Part shown: positions 4,781 to 63,669 of the stretch, one piece after another
How the letters are laid out: the number at the start of each line of letters is the position of its first letter
Numbering within the stretch: position 1 is the stretch's first letter
Origin: Psococerastis gibbosa
Taxonomy: Eukaryota > Arthropoda > Insecta > Psocodea > Psocidae
Direction of reading: 5' to 3'
Length of the DNA stretch: 64,000 bases
NCBI GenBank assembly: GCA_963971405.1
Contig: OZ020489.1
Location: 19,060,290 to 19,124,289 of the forward strand
Translations under genes and position numbers: made by a program
The notes under the pieces: generated by a model
The model's input: only the letters and a program-made list of their open reading frames with translations
What the model was told of the DNA's origin: nothing
The model's database searches: none

Positions 4781-4906
4781 TTTTTCTTGGTTTTTCTTTT
4801 GGGACAACTGCCTTACTTTGTGTAAGCCTGGCAATGTGTAATGCTATGCTTCTATAAAATGTACGCGTAATTTAATTATTAATATTTTATTTTTTAGTTG
4901 GCAGCC

Positions 4907-5304
4907 GTAAGAGTGTACAGACAGCCCTTAGGAAAGTGGCAGCCCGAAATTTAATGCTTTTTATTTTTTATTTAATTAACTAAGCATATTATTAAAGATT
5001 TGGCTCATCAAAGTTGTAGAAGACTACTTCGTGCATCATATATAAAAAGGTATTTTTAATTTTCGAAATTTTAGATTTTTTATAAAATTGATTATACGTG
5101 AAAAGTTATTGTTTATAAAATATTTGCATGTTTATGAAAAAACTACAATTTCGAAAATTAAAAATATCTTATAATATGATGCATGAAGTAGTCTTATACA
5201 ACTTTGAATAGCCAAATATTTATTAACATGCTTAGTTAATGAAATAAAAAATAGGAAGTATTAAATTTCGGGCTGCCAATTTCCTACGGGCTGTACACTC
5301 TTAA
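4907..5304. mobile_element. Foldback MITE, type P1, copy 1
   Basis: An almost complete palindrome of about 398 bp. The left arm (AAGAGTGTACAG, CAGCCCGAAATTTAAT, ACTACTTCGTGCATCAT) is repeated as its reverse complement in the right arm (ATGATGCATGAAGTAGTC, ATTAAATTTCGGGCTGCC, CTGTACACTCTTAA). The right end is TTAA and the left end TAA. P1b at 21775-22153 has TTAA at both ends. No ORF. Confidence 0.8.
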
Positions 5305-6790: not shown

Positions 6791-7411
6791 CAGGCAGGGC
6801 TTACCTACGCTTAGCTTACTAACTGGAGATAACTACACGGAAACTTTTGTTCTTAAGGTGTGTACTGATTTGCATTAGTGAGCGAATGTTGGCCTATTTT
6901 CAAGTTGCTGCATAAGTAATTCTCGAATACATATTTTAGAATTGGTGTTGGTTGGTGTTCCCAAATTTACTATGTGCTGTTGTGCTTGTTTTGATATGCC
7001 ATAATATATAGGGTACCACAGGCCTCAGCCTAACAAATGGTTGTTTTATGTTTGTTGTACAATGGTTTGATTTATCTATGGTGACCAATGCTTCCGCATA
7101 TTTACCTTGTTCCGTTATAAATTCTCCCTCAATTGAGTAGCTTATTCGATACATTGCTCAAGAATGATCTTTTGTTGTCTCGGTACAGCTAGGGTTCTAA
7201 ATATATTATATGCATATGGTATTTATAGCCCTAGGTACAGCGAAACAGAGCAAGTTATGCATGCTATGCTGAATGATGACTTATAATTGGCGACGAATTG
7301 TGTTAATAAAATGTTCTTACTCCGAAAATGACACCCAATAAAAATATTCAATTGTAATAGGTTCTTTTTTATGTTCTAATCTGGAGCGATAACCCCCACT
7401 CACTCTCAGCA
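6791..7411. other. Spacer with no recognised feature
   Basis: AT-rich DNA with short open frames that show no family resemblance. Confidence 0.4.
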
Positions 7412-7576
7412 GCCTGATCGAGGCGATTATAATACTGGGGTTAAATAAATACCCAAGGATTATAACTTTAAACAAACAAATTTTGAATAGCACTTTCCAT
7501 TATAAAATTATCGTGTTTACATTTTTATTACCAGGGGATTAAATAAATACCGGTATTATAATCGCCATGATCAGGC
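7412..7576. repeat. Small foldback element
   Basis: GCCTGATCGAGGCGATTATA is mirrored at the other end as TATAATCGCCATGATCAGGC, about 24 paired bases per arm. A direct repeat (GGGGTTAAATAAATAC / GGGGATTAAATAAATAC) lies inside the arms. No target duplication is obvious. Bases 7577-8179 downstream hold nothing I can name. Confidence 0.55.
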
Positions 7577-8179
7577 GGCAGAGGAGACTATCGAACACAA
7601 TGCATCTGACACATAGCCTAGGAGCGCCAAATTGGACAAAAAATAGTCAATATGCATATTATGTAACAAAAAAATTATAACAACTAATTAAACATTTCAA
7701 AATAAAAATACCAAAACATAGGGCCTACTGCAATTTCATTGTGGAACTGGGGTTTATTTAGTAAATATTTATTCTATGATTTAGGGAGCAGCCAGCCTGC
7801 AATAAAGCTGGTCTATAAACATTTTGACAATCATTGCCACATATGAGAGGATTTTTCTTAAAATGAGAATCAATTAAAATACTATTTACGAGCGACAGAC
7901 AGTGTCTTAAAAGAAGCTGAGCTCTCTTTTCTCCAGGGGCGCCCCGCTCTGTCCATAAAGCGAACAAGGCAATGAGTTTAAAGCCCCGCGCTTCTGTAGA
8001 AACTCACTATTTTGCGCCTCTTTCTTCAAAAAATTTCCTCCGAGGGTGGCCCCGGCCCCCCTTCTTTGAGTTCCTTCCCTTCGGCAGCTCTAGCGCCTGC
8101 ACAAGGGACATTAAAGTCATGCCCCCCTTAAACAACCATGGCCAAATGGTGTCAGTGTAGAGGGAGCCTTCTACTGTTT

Positions 8180-15254: not shown

Positions 15255-15650
15255 ACCCTTTAAGGGCCAACCGGAGTCGCCCATATTCCATTTTCAGTCC
15301 AAACTTCAATTTCTCATGAAATATGGAACGCAGAACAATGACAAAAATGTTGAGTCGCAAGGAGAATTTTTTCTCCTAATTTTGATATACACCGTAGTAT
15401 GTGGCCTTAACTAACCCCAATTCGCCACAGTTGATGAACTCCTTCAACTTGAACTCCTGAGTGACCGTTATTTTTTGCGTATCAAGTTCACTAACTATAG
15501 CCTATCGCTATGCTTGCTACATACTATGTATCAAAATTAGGAGAAAAAATTCTTCTTTCGACTCAGCATTTTTACATTGTTTTATCTTTGATATTTCATG
15601 AGAAATTGAAGTTTGCACATAAATGGAATATCGGCGACTCCGAGTTGCTC
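15255..15650. repeat. Long imperfect foldback element
   Basis: A left arm at about 15262-15392 (AACCGGAGTCGCCCATATTC, AATTTCTCATGAAATAT, TTTTTTCTCCTAATTTTGAT) is matched as reverse complement by a right arm at about 15525-15645 (ATCAAAATTAGGAGAAAAAA, ATATTTCATGAGAAATT, GGCGACTCCGAGTT). Arms are about 120-130 bp with scattered mismatches and a loop of roughly 130 bp. No ORF. Confidence 0.7.
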
Positions 15651-15830
15651 TTAATAAATGCTCAATTTTTCAACAGCATTATTAAAGAAATTAAAATGTT
15701 GACTATTATGTTTTTTCACTTTGTTTGATGTGTTGATATTTATTGACTGTTGTAAGTTCTTGCCCTCAAAATTATACTAATTAAATTATTAAACTAATAA
15801 TCGAATTCTCATCAAACCTTTTACCATATA

Positions 15831-19549: not shown

Positions 19550-31825
<12,276 letters not shown>

Positions 31826-38141: not shown

Positions 38142-41100
38142 ATGGTAACCGATACAGCCATGGAATTGACAGAGGATGAAGCGGAACTGTACGACAGGCA
38201 AATACGGTTGTGGGGAATTGATAGTCAGCGAAGGTTAGTCAAATTATATCAAGTACTCCAATGACAAATGCTATCTTTTCCATACTGTATATAAGCATTA
38301 TGTTGTGTGCAGAACCTTGGCAATTCAGCAACTACTTAATTTGAGCTCAACGTTGTAGTGCAATTGTGGCGTCTTTCGCTTCTTGCTTCTTTTCGGGAAA
38401 GATTCACTTTAGCTACCCCGCTGTACACAAAATTGGATGAAAATTCATATAAAGTAGATGGTAAACTTTGCATTTGCAAAACAACCTCCAAAATAGGCGG
38501 TTTTATAATGTTTATGTAATTTAATACTTGTAAAGATTACGATCTACTCAATTTGCAGAACTGACTATTTCAAACATAGTCCTGGTACTACGAGGGATAT
38601 TATAGTTTTGGGTGCAGCGGCTTTTCCGTGAAAATGGTAGGTGACAGAAATTTACAATGAATGAAACATACCTGATTATAGGGTATGAAATGAAATTCGC
38701 ACATAACGTGTACATCCACTGAATAGATTGTCTTCATGTTTAACCTATCACTTAACTATGTGTATTGCATTGCAGACTAAGGAATTCAAAAATTCTGATC
38801 ATAGGATTGCAAGGTTTTGGAGCAGAGGTGGCGAAAAACGTAATTCTCGCGGGAGTCAATCAAATGACTCTTCTGGATTCAGCTAAAGTTACTGAAAATG
38901 AGAGCATGGCTCAATTTTTGGTACCACCCAATTCCGAGGGACAAAATGTAAGTAATGAGTTTTAACTTTATTTTTGCCCTAGCGCTATTTTGCTCTGCTT
39001 ATCTCGTTACCGCTGTTCTGGATTTTGACAGTTGTAATACCCCGAGCACACTACAACAAATACTGCTGACGACGACCTACAAGTTCAAGAGGAGTTCAAG
39101 TCACTCGACGGGGCCTGACAATCAAACACCCAGTTAGTCTGGATTTGTAGTCTGGACCTTTTTCTTTTTTGTTTGCGCGGGGAATGTTAGATGTGTCAAT
39201 ATTATATCGAAACATTGTATTTGAATCTTATGCTCGATAGAGCCGCCATCTATTTATTGTTCAAGAAAAATGAGAAAAAGGTGGGAAACATTAAACCATT
39301 GAAATATAAGCCTTTTTACCACAAAGCTGAAGTTATTAAGATCCTTGACACCCGATTTGGTCAGTTTGTTGACATGCATCTGCTAAAGTTCAAGCTGGCT
39401 TAAAATCTGTAAAATTCTCCTCTCCAACTATTGAATCTACCTTTCTGGACTGGATATGTTCTATCTTATACATCACCGGTGCCACACCGTATGTAATCTG
39501 ATAAAAGTTCTGTCCATGTCTTGAAGTGTTGAGTTACGATCGCATGGTGTGTTGAAACTCGTACGAGCACGCTACCACCTTGCCACCGAAGCCGAAGCTC
39601 CACTGTTTTTCTGCGTCGTGCAAATGAGGTTAAAGGAGAAAACTGTCACACTGCTGGTTCTTTTTTTGCATCATCCTCTAAAACCCAGTTGCCCGGATGT
39701 GATTCGTGAGCCTCCATTCCTTCCGCGTCTTTACTTGTGATCATTCAACACTTTCTTGGGTACTAGTCCCACTCTCCAGATACCATCCTCAATTAGGTTT
39801 CTGTAACTCCTCCTTGGTCTTCCTCTTCTTGGTGTTCCCTCTATGTCTTTCGATTTACGCATCCGAACAATTGCAGTCTCCTCGCTATTTTCCCCACCAA
39901 TGATTCCTAAATGTTTATGTAACTCTTGTAACATGAATGATATTGATTTACTTTCAGCGAGCCGAAGCATCCCTTAAAAGAGCGCAAGCATTAAATCCTA
40001 TGGTTAAAGTTTCTGCGGACTCGAGCAGCGTCGAGAGTAAGCCGGACGAATATTTTGCCGAATACGATGTGGTCATTGCAACTGGTTGCAGCTTAAGTGA
40101 GTTGAAGCGCATCAACACAGCTTGCCGTCTCCGCAACATTAAGTTCTTCTGTGGCGATGTCCTCGGAATGTTTGGATATGCCTTTGCTGATCTTCTCATT
40201 CACGATTACACTGAGTAAGTACAGATTGTTTTAAAACATCTAAGCCCCTTCTTGGTATTTGAAATCAAATTTTAATGTTGAAATTATCGCCTTGTAATGT
40301 TTAAATGGTGAAAAAGAACCTTTAACAGTAAAATAGTAAAAGTAGGGACGAGATTTTATGTTACGATATGAATGAGATTGAACTTATCCATAGTGGTATT
40401 ATGTTTGAGGGCTGTTTTTAAGGCGAAAATTCCACCGACCTCGTTTTGCACCGTGAGCGTGATATTGACGTGGTAGCAGACATTAAAGACAGTCTTTAAT
40501 TAAATTAAAGACAGTCTTTAATGTCTGCTACCACGTCAATATCACGCTCACGGTGCAAAACGAGGTCGGTGGAACTGCCGCCTAACAGATTTTTTACACA
40601 ATATACAAATGCTCATTGACATTTCGGTTAGAAATGCCGATGAAAATTCTCAAGTAGCAACTGAGCTAATTAAGCTTCGAGTTTTTTCCATGGTACGATT
40701 TCACTCAGCACATACTGTATATGCCTATGTACGTACAAATTAAAAAGCTGCACAACATCCGTGTTAATCGCACACTATCCGCTGATTTGTAATGTGCAAT
40801 GCATCAAAATGTAGAGGTTCATTTGCTCTCCTTTATGTCTTTAATAACTCTGCTATCTGTTTCTCCTGTGGAATTTGACTTGGTGTAAAACGGGATATTA
40901 GCGATTAGATTTGCTACTGACATTCACAGCAACTCATTTTTAAAGCATTTAAATGCATTTAACGAGTACCAACACCTAAAACTAAGCCCTTTCGGGATTA
41001 TAATAATATAAATATGGTCAATTTTATTACTGTGAATTTTCTTTAAATATTTTAGGGAAATTGCTGTTTATCAGCAATTAAAAGGCCGGAAAGTGGAGAG

Positions 41101-47511: not shown

Positions 47512-47642
47512 GGCGCAAATTCCACCGACCTCGTTTGTGATGTGATAGTTATTGACGTGGTAGCAGACATTTTTAGTCTGTCTTTAATGTCTGCTACCAA
47601 GCCAATATCACTATCACAAACGAGGTCGGTGGAATTTGCGCC
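47512..47642. mobile_element. Palindromic H element 4
   Basis: TAT at both sides. Tips GGCGCAAATTCCACCGACC and partner. The stem TCGTTTGTGATGTGATAGTT is mirrored with a few changes. The core GACGTGGTAGCAGACATT on the left corresponds to AATGTCTGCTACCAAGCC on the right. 131 bp, the shortest copy. Confidence 0.82.
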
Positions 47643-51712: not shown

Positions 51713-54700
51713 ATGGCTGCCATTCATAACTTAAAAATTGTGCCTTGTAAGTTATCTTAATTTTTAAAATTGAAATATAATTAATGATTAGTTTGATATT
51801 TCAAATATGTGGGCCTAAAAAACAATATACAGTAATGTATATTTTCTGATGTTTTATAAAGCTATTTAACGCTATAAATCATGCCTAACTCTTGTCTCGT
51901 CAACAATATTATCTTGGTTGCCCTTTGACAGCGTAATTATTTTTCAAATTATTTTTTAGATGTGCGGCATTTGTCGCGAAGATGGTACTCCGCCAATACG
52001 AAGATAACTACCCATTATTCTATTATCCCCCGTGAAACAGATTCACGATGGAAAGGTGTGATTTTTTAACATTTTTCCTATATTGACGTAATGACTAGGT
52101 ACCGTAATCCAGGTTCAATTCGTTTTTATAAACTAACTATTTTTAACCCTCCACCACCATATATTAACAGGCTATATGTGTGCACTGTGCAACTTCTCAA
52201 ATTAATAATTTTCTCAAGTATGAACAAGTAGGTATAACATACCTACTCGAATATAGGTAAATTGAATTGAAAACGCTCCTATCTAAATTAATACTTTTCT
52301 ATTACGATCAAATAGGGGTCAGGACCAGGGGTCTCCAAATTCGCGGGGCTCGTAGCACAGCACGAACGCTTGTTACAGCCGAACATAAATGATAAAAAAT
52401 GAAAAGAGTTATTAATATATCCAGTTTAAATGATAACCAGCTTGACTGCAATTTTCTTTCAGATATTAATATGGAGAGAGCTTCTGATGAGACTGACGTG
52501 GTTATTGTTGGAGGAGGCCCAGCTGGGTTGGCAGCCGCCATTAGGTTTAAACAGCTGGCAGGTGAAAATCTTCGCGTAACCGTTGTAGAAAAAGCCCCAG
52601 AAGTTGGTAAGCTATTAGTGCAAATTATTGTTCGGCGGTTCCTTATGGAATACATAACACATTATGTTTTATGGCAGTGCTTATGACAGAAATATCAAGA
52701 AAACAAGCTGTCTACGCCAGTACATAACCTTACTATTATTATTTATTTTTTTAAATAAATTTGTGAATGCTCGTTGGTATTGCTAGGAGAAACAAAACCA
52801 TTAGGCGAAATATATAATTTAAAAAATTACTCAGTAAATTGTGCTCGCATATTACGGGGATAATTGTTATTTTGTTATGCATTCAGACTCTTGACATCCT
52901 CGTCGAGTTTCTGTAAATTTTTAAATTACTCCATTGCGACAACAAAAAAATAGTAATTATACTTCTTTATTTGCTTTTGATTAGTATTTGTTTTAAACAT
53001 GACGTCTTGTCTCCCAAGGGCTGTATATTATCTTAAAACTGTCCTTTTTTAATGCAATTTTGCGCCGTAGGTGGACATATTCTATCTGGAGCCTGCATAG
53101 ATCCAATCGCCCTAAATGAACTTCTACCTGATTGGAAAGACAGAGAAGGCCCTTTCAATACACCCGTCACAGAAGACAAGTTTGGATTTCTCACTGAGAA
53201 GAGTCGAATCGCCATACCGATACTACCAGGTAAATATAGACAAAATACACGTTTTTTAATATAATTTGATGACCAACTACTTAAGTTTTGTCCATGAAAT
53301 ATGACATTTTAAGAAAGCACTAAATACCGTAACTGTTGTCATTTCTATATCTTTCACTTTGTCTACAGGTATGCCCTTAAATAACCATGGCAATTACGTT
53401 GTCAGGTTGGGTCATGTAGTCAGATGGCTTGGAGAGCAAGCAGAAGCTCTCGGTGTGGAGATATATCCTGGTTCACCGGCGTCGGAAGTTCTGTTCCATG
53501 AAGACGGCAGTGTCAAGGGGATAGCAACGTGTGACGTTGGTATTGCCAAGGATGGCAGTCCGAAGGTATGCTAAGGCGGCGATTCCACCGACCGGCTAGG
53601 GCTAGATACAAATACGGTGTCATTTGCATTCTGCAATGCGAGGTTTGTGGAAACCCCGCCTAACTCTTGAATGACTGCTACCACGTCACCGTTATTGTAT
53701 TTAGCCCTAGCCGGTCGGTGGAATCCCCGCCTAATTCAAATAATTCAAGAACGCCTATTCCATTGAAACTACTTCATTCATTTTGGCTGCTGTTATTAAG
53801 TGACGATCGAAGGGGGAAAGCCTTAAAAACATAAAAATTAATTATCTTACGAAATATCGCTTGTACGGCTGTCAACCATATCACATCCAAATTTTTCTGT
53901 GGATTTTGATACATGATTTGTGCCTCTTCCTAACAGCAAATGGCTACAATTATGGAAATTGATTTGTGCAAAAAACGGTTGGTAAAGGGGAATTTTTTCT
54001 TCGAATAAGTAGTAGAGTAAAAACTAAATATTCAGGTCGAAACTAAATACAAATATTTGCTTCGGTCTCCGGAGGAAGGAGCTTGAAATATGTATGAAAA
54101 TGTAGATGAGTATTTCATCTAAGGAATGCGCTATCAATGATATTTTCTGTGAATTTCAACTACTTTGTGCAAGCGAAAAACGCTTAATGGGTGGGTGGTG
54201 CCCGAAATTCTCTTACAGGTATTGTGAGTAAAAAGTACTGAAAATAATACGAGCAATAAAAATGCATTCTGGTACATTCAGAGGTGTAGAAGTGTAACCT
54301 AATAGTGTAAAATAAAATTAATTTTGTTGCTGCAGTTATATAACACTATGTTTTCTTACGTTTTATGAGTGGGACTCATACCCACGACCTTTTTTTTCTG
54401 GGGAAAAGGTAATTCACTATATGACCTAGCCAATAGTTCCTGATTTCCAAGGTAGTAGATGCTCTTTATAAGAACAGCTTATGAAGAGTTCTCAGCGCCA
54501 CACATCGTAACTTTATAAGTCTGCGGACTACTTTATACCATAAGTTCTTTAAATAGAAGTTATTGTTCATTCTAGTCTCAATTCCAATTCAGGTATCTAC
54601 ACATTAGGATCTCTTGCAACTTTGAGAAAAATGTTTGTTTTTTTTGTTTCCGATGTTACGGGTTATGAATTTTCAGGACAGCTTTGCACGCGGCATGGAA

Positions 54701-57700
54701 CTTCACGCTAAGGTGACGATATTTGCAGAAGGTTGCCATGGCCATTTAACGAAACAAATATCTAAGAAGTTGAAACTCAGGGAAAATTGTGAGCCTCAAA
54801 CATACGGCATTGGATTGAAGGAAGTGTGGGAGATTGCACCTGAAAAGCATAAACCTGGGCGAGTTGAGCACACCGTTGGTTGGCCTTTGGTAAGAAAATT
54901 CATAAACTCCCACTGGAGAGAAAGAACATGATTTAATTTTCAACCCCTAAGCAAAATGCTTACGAGCCATTTATTTGATATTGACAACAATGTGAGCACT
55001 CGCAAAAAATGAATGTTTTGTTTATTGATTTATTTTTCCACTTTTCCCACTTAACCACAGTACCGTATACTCCTAACTTACTAGGATTCAAGAAGATTCA
55101 GAAAAAGAACCGGAAAAGTAGCTGTTTGTAATTAATTTATGAAAAGATAAGTATGATTGCCAATATGTAAAATCGTCTCCTTTGCAACTTCATAATATTT
55201 TGCACTCATTTTAATTAGTGTATCTTAATAAAAAAATATTACAAAAAAACATAAATCACATAAATTACTACCGGTTTCGATTAATCGTCATAGTCAAGAG
55301 AAAGTTTTACATTAACACGTTATAAACAAAAACTTTACAAATTAATATTGGATTTGGCAGCAATATCTTATTTGTAAAGTGTTTTTGTTTACAACGTGAT
55401 AATTTTAATGTAAAACTTGCAATTACTTGTTTTAATTTTTATTTACTCACTTGACAATGAGGATTAGTCGGAACCGAGTGTGATTTATGTTTTTGTTTGT
55501 AATATTTTATATTAAGTTGCACTGACTGTAATGAATGCCAATAATAAGGCGGAGTTTCCACCGACCTCTCATTGCAGAATGGACTTACGTTGGCGTGGTA
55601 GCAGACATTCAAGACTTAGGCGGGGTTTCCATCGACCTCGCATTGCAGAATGCACATGACATTGACGGAAATTTTTGTTTTCCTCTATGCCATAGTTAAA
55701 ATTTATCAATGATCATAGAGTAAAATCACAAACAAACTAAAAATAAAAAAAATGGCGTCATGGGATATGCTAAGTACAAACATTTTAATAGATTTCTATA
55801 AAAAGAAAAATTCAATGTCATTTGCATTCTGCAATGAGAGGTCGGTGGAAACCCCGCCTATGTCTTGAATGTCTGCTACCACGTCAACGTAAGTGCATTC
55901 TGCAGTGAGAGGTCGGTGGAAACCCCGCCTAACCGCGCTAATCAATGCAAATGCGATTATGATTTGCAGGACCCGAAAACATACGGTGGCTCATTCCTGT
56001 ACCATCTTAATGAGGGGCCTCTGGTCGCGGTTGGATTCGTCGTAGGCTTGGATTATACCAATCCGTATTTACATCCTTTTAAGGAATTCCAAAAGTTTAA
56101 GCAACACCCCTCAATAAGACCTATTTTTGAGGGAGGCACCAGGTAAGCAACCAGGAATCCTTTAAAAAAATTGCATTATATCTTCAAGTATCATGCAACG
56201 CATAACAAAACACCATAAACACACACCGAACGGCGCATATACTCGAAACTGTCCCACGTCTAAAAAAATGTACATTCGCTAAGTCTAATTTCTCCTGGAG
56301 TGTGAAATGTTCATAGAAATGCCTAATAGATTGGAATTTCATTAGCAGCTTAAAATTCTTGGCTTGATTGCCTTCCAAGTTTTTGGTGGCAATAGGCTCG
56401 CAATAATACTTAGTCTAAAAACGCATATGCTAAATTAAAATCTAAATATTTATCATAGGTAGTAGTGTTCGTCGGATTAAAAACGGCTTAGGTCTCATAT
56501 TTGGCCCCATAGAGTGACCCCGACTTGACTGTCCTATGCCAGCCCATACGACAGTGGACCTCCTGATTATAGTGGATTCCGAACCACTTGGGAAACACAG
56601 TGAAGTCAAACGATTAGTTCGGAGGTGACCAGGACAAGTCCTACCATGTTTCCCTACCGGCACTGTGCACACGACCAAGTTATCTGCAGCTTTGAACCTG
56701 CTCTGGTCCGCTGGATTCAACTTGGCCGGCTATCATAGGGGTACTCACTGACTGGTTGTAAAGAAAAATTCAGGGAAAATATAGCCTAAATTAGGCATAA
56801 AAAGTAAATCAATATGAATTCTATTTTATGTTCATTTATTTACTTTCACGTATATTTCAATTTTACCCGACTTTTCCACTTTACCCCAGTGAGTATCGTA
56901 CATAATTTATAAAACGATAAAATAACAATAACTCTTGTCCACGTAATTACTGAAAGCCTATATTTCTCTTCTACCTTTTTGTAACCACGAATTATGACTA
57001 GGTTATGGCAATTACTTACAGAATAGCATATGGAGCGCGCGCCCTGGCTGAAGGAGGTTTTCAATCCATTCCGAAGCTGACTTTCCCCGGGGGATGCCTC
57101 ATCGGTTGTGCTGCTGGGTTTCTTAACGTCCCGAAGATCAAAGGCACCCACAACGCTATGAAGTCTGGCATGTTGGCGGCTGAGGCTACATACGATGCTA
57201 TTCAGGAGGGTGGTGGCGCCACAAAAGGGGTTAGTTAAACATTAATGCCTCATATTCTGGAGATTGAGAGTTCGAATTCCCTCCGTCTCTGAATTTAATT
57301 CATTATTCCCCGTGTTTATACCAAGTACAAATATAAATTAAATTGCCCTGTGGAAGAGGCGCACTTTCAAACCCCGCCCCTCCAGATTTTTAATATGGAA
57401 GAATGATGGTGTTAAATAAATCAAATATGTATGTTTATTTGAAAATGGTAAAAAACGGTGGTTGTAAGCACAAAGGAATGCATGAAAAAGTGGTCCCGAC
57501 TCCCGAGATATGATTTTTTTTCTTCTTTGTTTTAGTCTTTTTGTTAATCTATTTTTTTGCCCCAGAACCAAACTATCAAGGGGAAAGCGACCGCGCGGGT
57601 TTTAATCACACCAATAACCACTACAATGTGAATTAAAAGAAAATCATTGGAGCTGTCTATGAGGAATAATTTCTTTATCCGTCTTTTTGGAGATTTTTTA

Positions 57701-62825: not shown

Positions 62826-63267
62826 AATAGACCGGTTATGCGTACAATAGGCATAAATACAGTATGTAAGTAAGAAGAGTGCCTTCATTGGCTGTGAAGA
62901 TGGGTCACTTCTAATTTTCAGTGCAATTTTTTTAAAAATAATCTACCGATAATATACCGATATGTCACTGATGGTAGTTCTAATAGGCATTGCCCTGTAA
63001 ACAAAATGTTGGCTGACACATATTTCGAAATTATAACACAATACTAAAGGCGGAAGGATGAAACTACATGACTCCAATGAAGAATTAGCCCTAAAATTAC
63101 TAATAAGAGCTAATTCTATCAAAGAATGTCGAATTAAGCATGACACAAAGTATTGCAAGGACTCGGCAGCAGACAAGTCACAGTTTTCCTGATAAAACTA
63201 ATGTTTGAAACTTTGAGAAGAAAGCCGACGATTTTTTTTTGTTTATGTATAGTAATTAGGGAAAACA

Positions 63268-63669
63268 TTATAGGACATGCTACGTAGAAAATTAGCACCC
63301 CAAAATTTGTTGTTTTTATAGACTTTTTATTTTTTATTTAATTAACAAAGCAAGTCATTAAAGATTTGGCTCATGAAAGTTGTAGAAGACTACTTCGTGC
63401 ATGATATAATCGGGTATTTTTACTTTTTGGTTTTGTAGTTCTTCCAAAAATCCCAGAATACGCATAATTTTAGTCCGTTCTGGTATTTATGAAAGAACTA
63501 AGGAACCAAAAATTTAATATTTCCTATTACATGATGCATGAAGCAGTCTTCTACAACTTCCATGAGCCAAATTTTTAATGACATGCTTTGTTAATTAAAT
63601 AAAAAATAAAATGTCAATAAAAACAACAAATTTTGGAGTGCTATTTTTCTACGTAGCATATCCTCTTAA
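63268..63669. mobile_element. Foldback MITE, type P2, copy c
   Basis: Tips TATAGGACATGCTACGTAGA ... CTACGTAGCATATCCTCTTAA, 402 bp. The right flank is TTAA and the left is TTAT. The stem has GTTGTAGAAGACTACTTCGT and its complement. The most regular P2 copy. Bases 63670-64000 hold nothing recognised. Confidence 0.8.

Follow-up and report, generated by a model that had tools for sequence, protein, structure and literature searches.

The two arms of the palindromic elements described here (designated H) change together, far beyond shuffled controls, and this joint change is real and well supported. Six loci in the window, that is, the whole 64-kb stretch of DNA analysed, had in common a tip, a core and palindromy, as an earlier note on this DNA had claimed and as a re-reading of the sequence bore out. 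A total of eight elements was found at these loci, two of them nested within others (Table 1). One arm and its core were described by the pattern GGYR-N4-TTCCACCG, N15-40, GACGTGGTAGCAGACATT. All 18 arms, a count which takes in the duplicated arm of H2 and the remnant in H5, read GGYR-4 nt-TTCC and started with GGCG, GGTG or GGCA, it being noted that arms were chosen by the tip motif and repeats; the elements ended in GGCG...CGCC or nearly so. The 4-nt spacer of GGCG-nnnn-TTCC was also copy-specific and mostly paired, H3 being the exception. Furthermore, one exact tip 8-mer was present outside any H element (3951, minus strand). The group has the properties of miniature inverted-repeat elements (MITEs): its eight elements, spread over six loci in 64 kb, measure 131-384 bp, have inverted-repeat ends and contain no coding sequence.

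Table 1. Positions and properties of the H elements in the window (TSD, 3-bp target-site duplication).
Feature	Positions	Length	TSD	Properties
H1 outer palindrome	22906..23289	384 bp incl. nested element	TTA	139-bp palindrome minus nested part, 5 arm mismatches
H1 inner MITE	22977..23218	242 bp	TAA	at exact centre of H1 palindrome, 68 bp each side
H2	30024..30227	204 bp	none matching (TTA/TAA)	stem without significant relative
H2 tandem duplication	30084..30481	198-bp unit		89% matches; H2 right part plus flank; second right arm 30364-30428
H3, element under study	40422..40582	161 bp	TAA	4 mismatches in 80 pairs
H4	47512..47642	131 bp	TAT	stem 25 nt left, 22 nt right; related to H3
H5 outer palindrome	53575..53731	157 bp	TAA	stem of H1 type
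H5 inner-element remnant	53620..53660			right arm of nested element
H6 outer palindrome	55548..55929	382 bp incl. nested element	TAA	139-bp palindrome minus nested part, 4 arm mismatches
H6 inner MITE	55619..55858	240 bp	none matching (TTA/TAT)	at exact centre of H6 palindrome, 68 bp each side

Covariation between the arms was measured in five of the eight elements (H1, H5, H6 outer, H6 inner and H2), taken without gaps from the tip over 44 positions per arm. Those excluded were H3, owing to its 28-nt stem, H4, with shorter stems, the inner element of H1, which carries a left-arm deletion, and the inner remnant of H5; the arm-to-arm stem identities of the first three were 1.00, 0.84 and 0.81, respectively, and the H5 remnant consists of one arm. 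It had been claimed that the arms match within a copy more closely than the stems resemble each other between copies, and the check, run in the window, upheld this, as the stem (positions 20-44) showed a mismatch per site of 0.088 within copies vs. 0.626 between them. The values between and within copies were 0.594 and 0.100 for the spacer and 0.073 and 0.036 for the tip, respectively, and the core had a mismatch between copies of 0.068 (11 arms, six copies). Moreover, 94.5% of the cells paired, and both sides had changed in 30 of the 44 arm pairs, while slid structures gave 5-11 double-change pairs. The observed covariation was matched by none of 500 shuffles on any of five measures, in controls which ignore the kinship among rows and for data from six loci of one window. 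When left and right arms were permuted, only one of the 120 arrangements, the true pairing, reached the observed agreement; about three types of stem are represented among the five rows (H1 and H5 being close, as are H6 outer and inner), which are therefore not five independent tests.

The flanks of the elements were informative about their class. Six of the eight elements were bordered by an exact direct 3-bp repeat (TAA four times, TTA once and TAT once), five of the eight fitting TWA, and the other two, H2 and H6 inner, had no matching flank repeat. The chance of six duplications in eight elements was 1.8e-9 with random flanks and 0.006 if the flanks were already T[AT][AT], the ends having been set after inspection in both cases. 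Terminal inverted repeats of PIF/Harbinger transposons typically have GG- ends. A TWA duplication of 3 bp is a mark of these transposons (PMC4482050), for which a TWA target together with a 9-bp insertion preference has been described (PMC4482050, PMC2836001), according to the available text of these sources. Given the 3-bp duplications, the H elements look, on sequence grounds, like non-autonomous PIF/Harbinger-type MITEs, with which they share both the TWA-type duplication and terminal inverted repeats starting with GG. The insertion context of both nested elements was GAC-TWA-GTC, at two sites that perhaps reflect a single event. No transposase was detected, nor a Myb-like ORF1 such as an autonomous partner would carry beside its DDE transposase, in the 25 of the 44 window ORFs (at least 95 aa) that were scanned, against Pfam only.

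The window itself, with a G+C content of 37%, looks like animal nuclear DNA from its sequence. Its Pfam matches were DCP1, the decapping C-terminus, RTE1-like, Snf7, ETF-QO and reverse transcriptase, in addition to a weak match to MVB12 (22.9 bits vs. a cut-off of 22), and the solved structures nearest to the DCP1 exon were 2lyd and 4b6h. The reverse transcriptase match (RVT_1) was a fragment of a LINE-like element at 27847-28497 on the minus strand. No Rfam families at the gathering threshold and no tRNAs were found in the window. Other repeats were present as well, namely a separate inverted repeat of ~395 bp at 15260-15654, with three arm blocks that are 80-93% complementary; another at 7405-7583, with 80-nt arms that are 73% complementary and ends unlike those of the H elements; and an 80-bp unit duplicated exactly in tandem at 30990-31152 (100% matches). 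Exact matches to the core were absent from the viral contigs, and exact matches to the core pair were absent from both the prokaryote genome contigs and the viral contigs. A tip-pair match at one locus of the viral contigs (L001) showed no palindrome outside the two ends matched by the pattern; it has the look of phage coding DNA and was put down to chance.

To account for the joint change of the arms, we lean towards an explanation in which the anchors are kept, the free segments drift and the arms are re-matched by copying, with subfamilies diverging in place at a nearly fixed length. Transposition proteins would bind the tip and the core, by which the kept segments and their spacing would be held, leaving the segments between these anchors free to drift. 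If one free arm then changes, the change may be copied to the other through template switching or hairpin gap repair (quasipalindrome correction), probably mainly in the lineages founding new subfamilies, and matched arms would be the outcome. What was observed of this explanation is the segment pattern, the covariation of the arms, the near-fixed length, the duplications in six of eight elements and the nesting at the palindrome centre. Template switching that homogenises the arms of inverted repeats has been reported in yeast (PMC8604942), and in RNA genes it is said to create hairpins, the evidence for stem maintenance there being called less clear and circumstantial (PMC8794818), as far as the available text of both reports goes. 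In H3, the DNA of positions 40421-40583 folded with -93.7 kcal/mol, compared to -17.9 on average for shuffled sequences (z -26.3). Its mismatches were found at positions 5, 6, 8 and 70, three of the four falling in the 4-nt tip spacer, with a chance of ~2e-4 for at least three of four (a hand count, made post hoc), and the mismatched spacer adjoined a 28-nt stem and a core that were perfect. These spacer mismatches look like the edge of an arm-copying tract, made either in H3 or in its founder.

The time at which the arms were matched was examined with quartets, whose copy-shared, arm-shared and crossed counts were 2:0:0 for H1/H6 (core plus inner), 3:0:0 for H1/H5 and 1:0:0 for H3/H4 (alignment dependent); these counts are small and stand beside 10, 6 and 13 single-arm changes, respectively. 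A second palindromic repeat family of the window with five copies, K, was used as a control. Its sites were 4906-5303, 21464-22585 and 63266-63664, three of the copies adjoining each other at 21.5-22.6 kb, and its anatomy comprised a TTAAGA ending in six of ten arms, a common inner block and group-specific outer arms. When K1 or K2 was compared with K3 or K5, 16-23 changes were copy-shared and 1-3 arm-shared, and pairs with K4 gave 6 vs. 1-3, respectively. Within the groups, by comparison, the copy-shared and arm-shared counts were 0 vs. 3 for K1/K2 and 3 vs. 8 for K3/K5. The control thus showed no sign of arm copying after insertion: matching of the K arms dates from the founders, each arm having decayed on its own since then, and H may behave likewise. 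Arm copying in H is plausible, but it may not go beyond the matching in founders.

Ordinary sister MITE families, each started by a palindromic founder without any arm copying, are a possible but less probable source of the same pattern; the alternatives weighed here and below are not mutually exclusive. The stem would then be a family-specific part of the terminal inverted repeat (TIR), with the ends selected for the family's own transposase/ORF1, and selection for matching ends could indeed yield the same covariation without template switching. Such an origin agrees with the coral CMITEs, in which family-specific TIRs surround a conserved interior, with K, whose K1/K2 and K3/K5 groups each behave like products of founder amplification, and with a within-copy stem mismatch of ~9%, which fits independent decay after insertion. 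However, within one transposase, selection for binding should keep the stem, whereas it was the tip and core that were kept, variation falling on the free segments, the 4-nt spacer among them. Sister families also sit poorly with the clustering of the H3 mismatches in the spacer, and a whole-arm match in each founder would still require a copying step.

The nested elements added a further layer of structure, since the palindromes of H1 and H6 each carry a MITE of 240-242 bp at their exact centre (Table 1). Once joined, the flanks around the nested insertion read ACATTCAAGAC-TWA-GTC(A/T)TGAATGT, which is a near or full palindrome. H5 is likewise an outer/inner composite, from which an internal deletion took the left core along with the left part of the inner element, leaving the inner right arm in place. 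In the inner element the tip is the same and the stem shows kinship with the H3, H4 and H6 outer stems, which places this element in the H group. H1 and H6 had the core, the inner element and the insertion point in common (85.6% over 319 bp), with outer stems at 52% identity (P = 0.16) and outer arms equal at 68 bp despite these different stems. It is rather unlikely, although the composites would allow it, that the central parts (core, centre and nested MITE) passed between palindromes by gene conversion, or that the inner MITE was inserted twice independently. The agreement of H1 and H6 inside differing outer stems speaks for such modular exchange, as does the joined centre GAC-TWA-GTC, palindromic in both, but descent followed by stem drift could also give a common insertion point, and exchange accounts for the mixed composites only, leaving the origin of matched, different stems unexplained. 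As a separate observation, CTCTC was present in the right inner arm and both outer arms of H6, and CTCGC in the inner elements of H1 and H5 and in the left inner arm of H6 (55556-55581, 55823-55921). This pattern at a single site is a possible case of conversion within one copy, between its outer and its inner arms.

The relatedness of the stems was compared in 28 element pairs by gapped identity, with 1000 shuffles each and uncorrected P-values whose floor is 0.001. At this floor were H1 inner/H6 inner (96%), H1/H5 (89%), H6 outer/H6 inner (81%) and H6 outer/H1 inner (74%), followed by H3/H4 and H3/H1 inner (71% each), H3/H6 inner (64%) and H4 with the inner elements (59-63%). Weaker pairs were H5/H6 outer (63%, P = 0.004), H6 outer/H3 (57%, P = 0.006), H5 with the inner elements (70%, P = 0.016 and 0.024) and H6 outer/H4 (70%, P = 0.037), while the remaining pairs had P-values above 0.05 with identities of up to 0.63, which represent background. 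The stem of H2 was at background in seven of seven pairs, none below P = 0.1, and that of H1 was significant with H5 only, which falls short of establishing a single ancestor for the whole set of stems; under the copying explanation, the H2 stem would presumably share ancestry with the others. The stems had been described as unrelated, which does not apply to most of them, as identities grade from 0.96 to background, H2 alone being without a significant relative. Moreover, 10 of the 12 core-bearing arms had a stem (counted from TTCCACCGA to the core) of 27 or 28 nt. Stems of 27 nt were found in eight arms (both of H1, the right one of H5, both of H6 outer, and the left, right and duplicate right ones of H2) and stems of 28 nt in both arms of H3, H4 being the exception to this rule. 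The arms of H2 are 65 nt long and 94% complementary (30021-30085/30166-30230), with an 80-nt spacer between them.

The near-fixed stem length and the graded identities favour drift in place with re-matching of the arms over capture of new sequence. In the model of the earlier note, new sequence was captured between the tip and the core and the second arm was remade by fold-back synthesis; its first half is unsupported and its second half, in so far as the arms do change together, agrees with the data. Capture can draw on the H2 stem, which has no significant relative, on the right arms of H6 outer and inner, which agree in 16 of the 17 first positions and then differ in a block adjoining the core (runs test, P = 0.034; one of seven pairs below 0.05), and on H3 and H4, which differ in mid-stem with a change in length. 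On the other hand, it is opposed by the graded similarity and by a stem length that is 27-28 nt in all but two of the 12 arms, and no source longer than 12 nt was found for any stem outside the elements of the 64-kb window, which is a weak test at that size. Capture as a general origin of the stems is therefore improbable, although the H2 stem and the H6 block difference leave some room for capture or block replacement. H6 outer was also considered to be a possible chimera, with an inner-type tip joined to an H1-type proximal stem, for which the H6 block pattern is the sole support. Finally, a core that is itself an independent inserted repeat can be given hardly any credence, for although its conservation is far above that of the adjacent stem, in 10 of 12 arms its distance from the tip is 27-28 nt, and inspection of the loci by eye revealed no duplication flanking it.

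A more tentative, stronger form of the explanation by kept anchors and copied arms is a MITE lineage with repeated hairpin arm copying, whose ends evolve as a linked pair and which combines protein-binding anchors with a free spacer of fixed length. If this stronger form is right, it would offer a direct mechanism by which the two ends of one DNA transposon change jointly, and clustered mismatches like those of H3 would show where copying tracts stop. How diverging families keep the inverted ends of their transposons matched is seldom testable. Should kept tips and cores with free paired spacers occur in many copies, the arm-copying tracts could be mapped and separated from selection on the ends.

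Compared to known systems, H is a PIF/Harbinger-like palindromic MITE group of nearly fixed anatomy, and its pattern is mildly unusual. Like PIF/Harbinger (Tourist-like) MITEs, the H elements are short, have no coding capacity and have GG- ends and a 3-bp duplication (TWA in five of the six having one), but the outer elements are palindromic through to the centre (with an 80-nt spacer in H2) and bear a variable stem between a kept tip and a kept core. A hairpin amplification model has reportedly been put forward for the Angel elements of zebrafish. Galileo elements, which are Foldback-like, are much longer than the H elements. Both have inverted repeats and a dynamic structure, and defective Galileo copies have been attributed to slippage, template switching and ectopic recombination (PMC4168063). 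However, Galileo belongs to the P superfamily and has target-site duplications of 7-8 bp, whereas the repeat flanking H is 3 bp long, and a fixed-length stem between conserved blocks is not described in the available text of that source (PMC4168063). Quasipalindrome correction and template-switch mutation resemble H in that arms are homogenised and hairpin stems are made and mended, but they are a mutation process in yeast coding DNA and RNA genes rather than a MITE family, from the accessible parts of the reports (PMC8604942, PMC8794818).

An H-like family with the same anatomy was not found described in the open-licence literature, mostly titles and abstract openings. Nevertheless, the statement of the earlier note that no described family behaves in this way was too strong, given the coral CMITEs (PMC2872659) and the published arm-homogenising template switching (PMC8604942, PMC8794818), as these appear in the available text. 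Among the literature examined, the CMITEs are the closest case and a partial precedent. As described in the accessible part of the source, these piggyBac/TTAA elements of Acropora have, like H, a conserved interior, TIRs that differ between families, tandem arrays and a composite, which arose by CMITE insertion into a direct-repeat proto-element; the family-specific TIRs match along 13-14 bp in families I-III and at the outermost bases only in IV-VI (PMC2872659). They are unlike H in their TTAA target, 13-14 bp TIR and length of ~100 bp (PMC2872659), and in place of a TTAA duplication and piggyBac ends, the H elements have 3-bp duplications and GGCG ends. In the CMITEs, as far as that text describes them, it is the terminal repeat itself that varies, whereas in H the variable part lies between a kept tip and a kept palindromic core.
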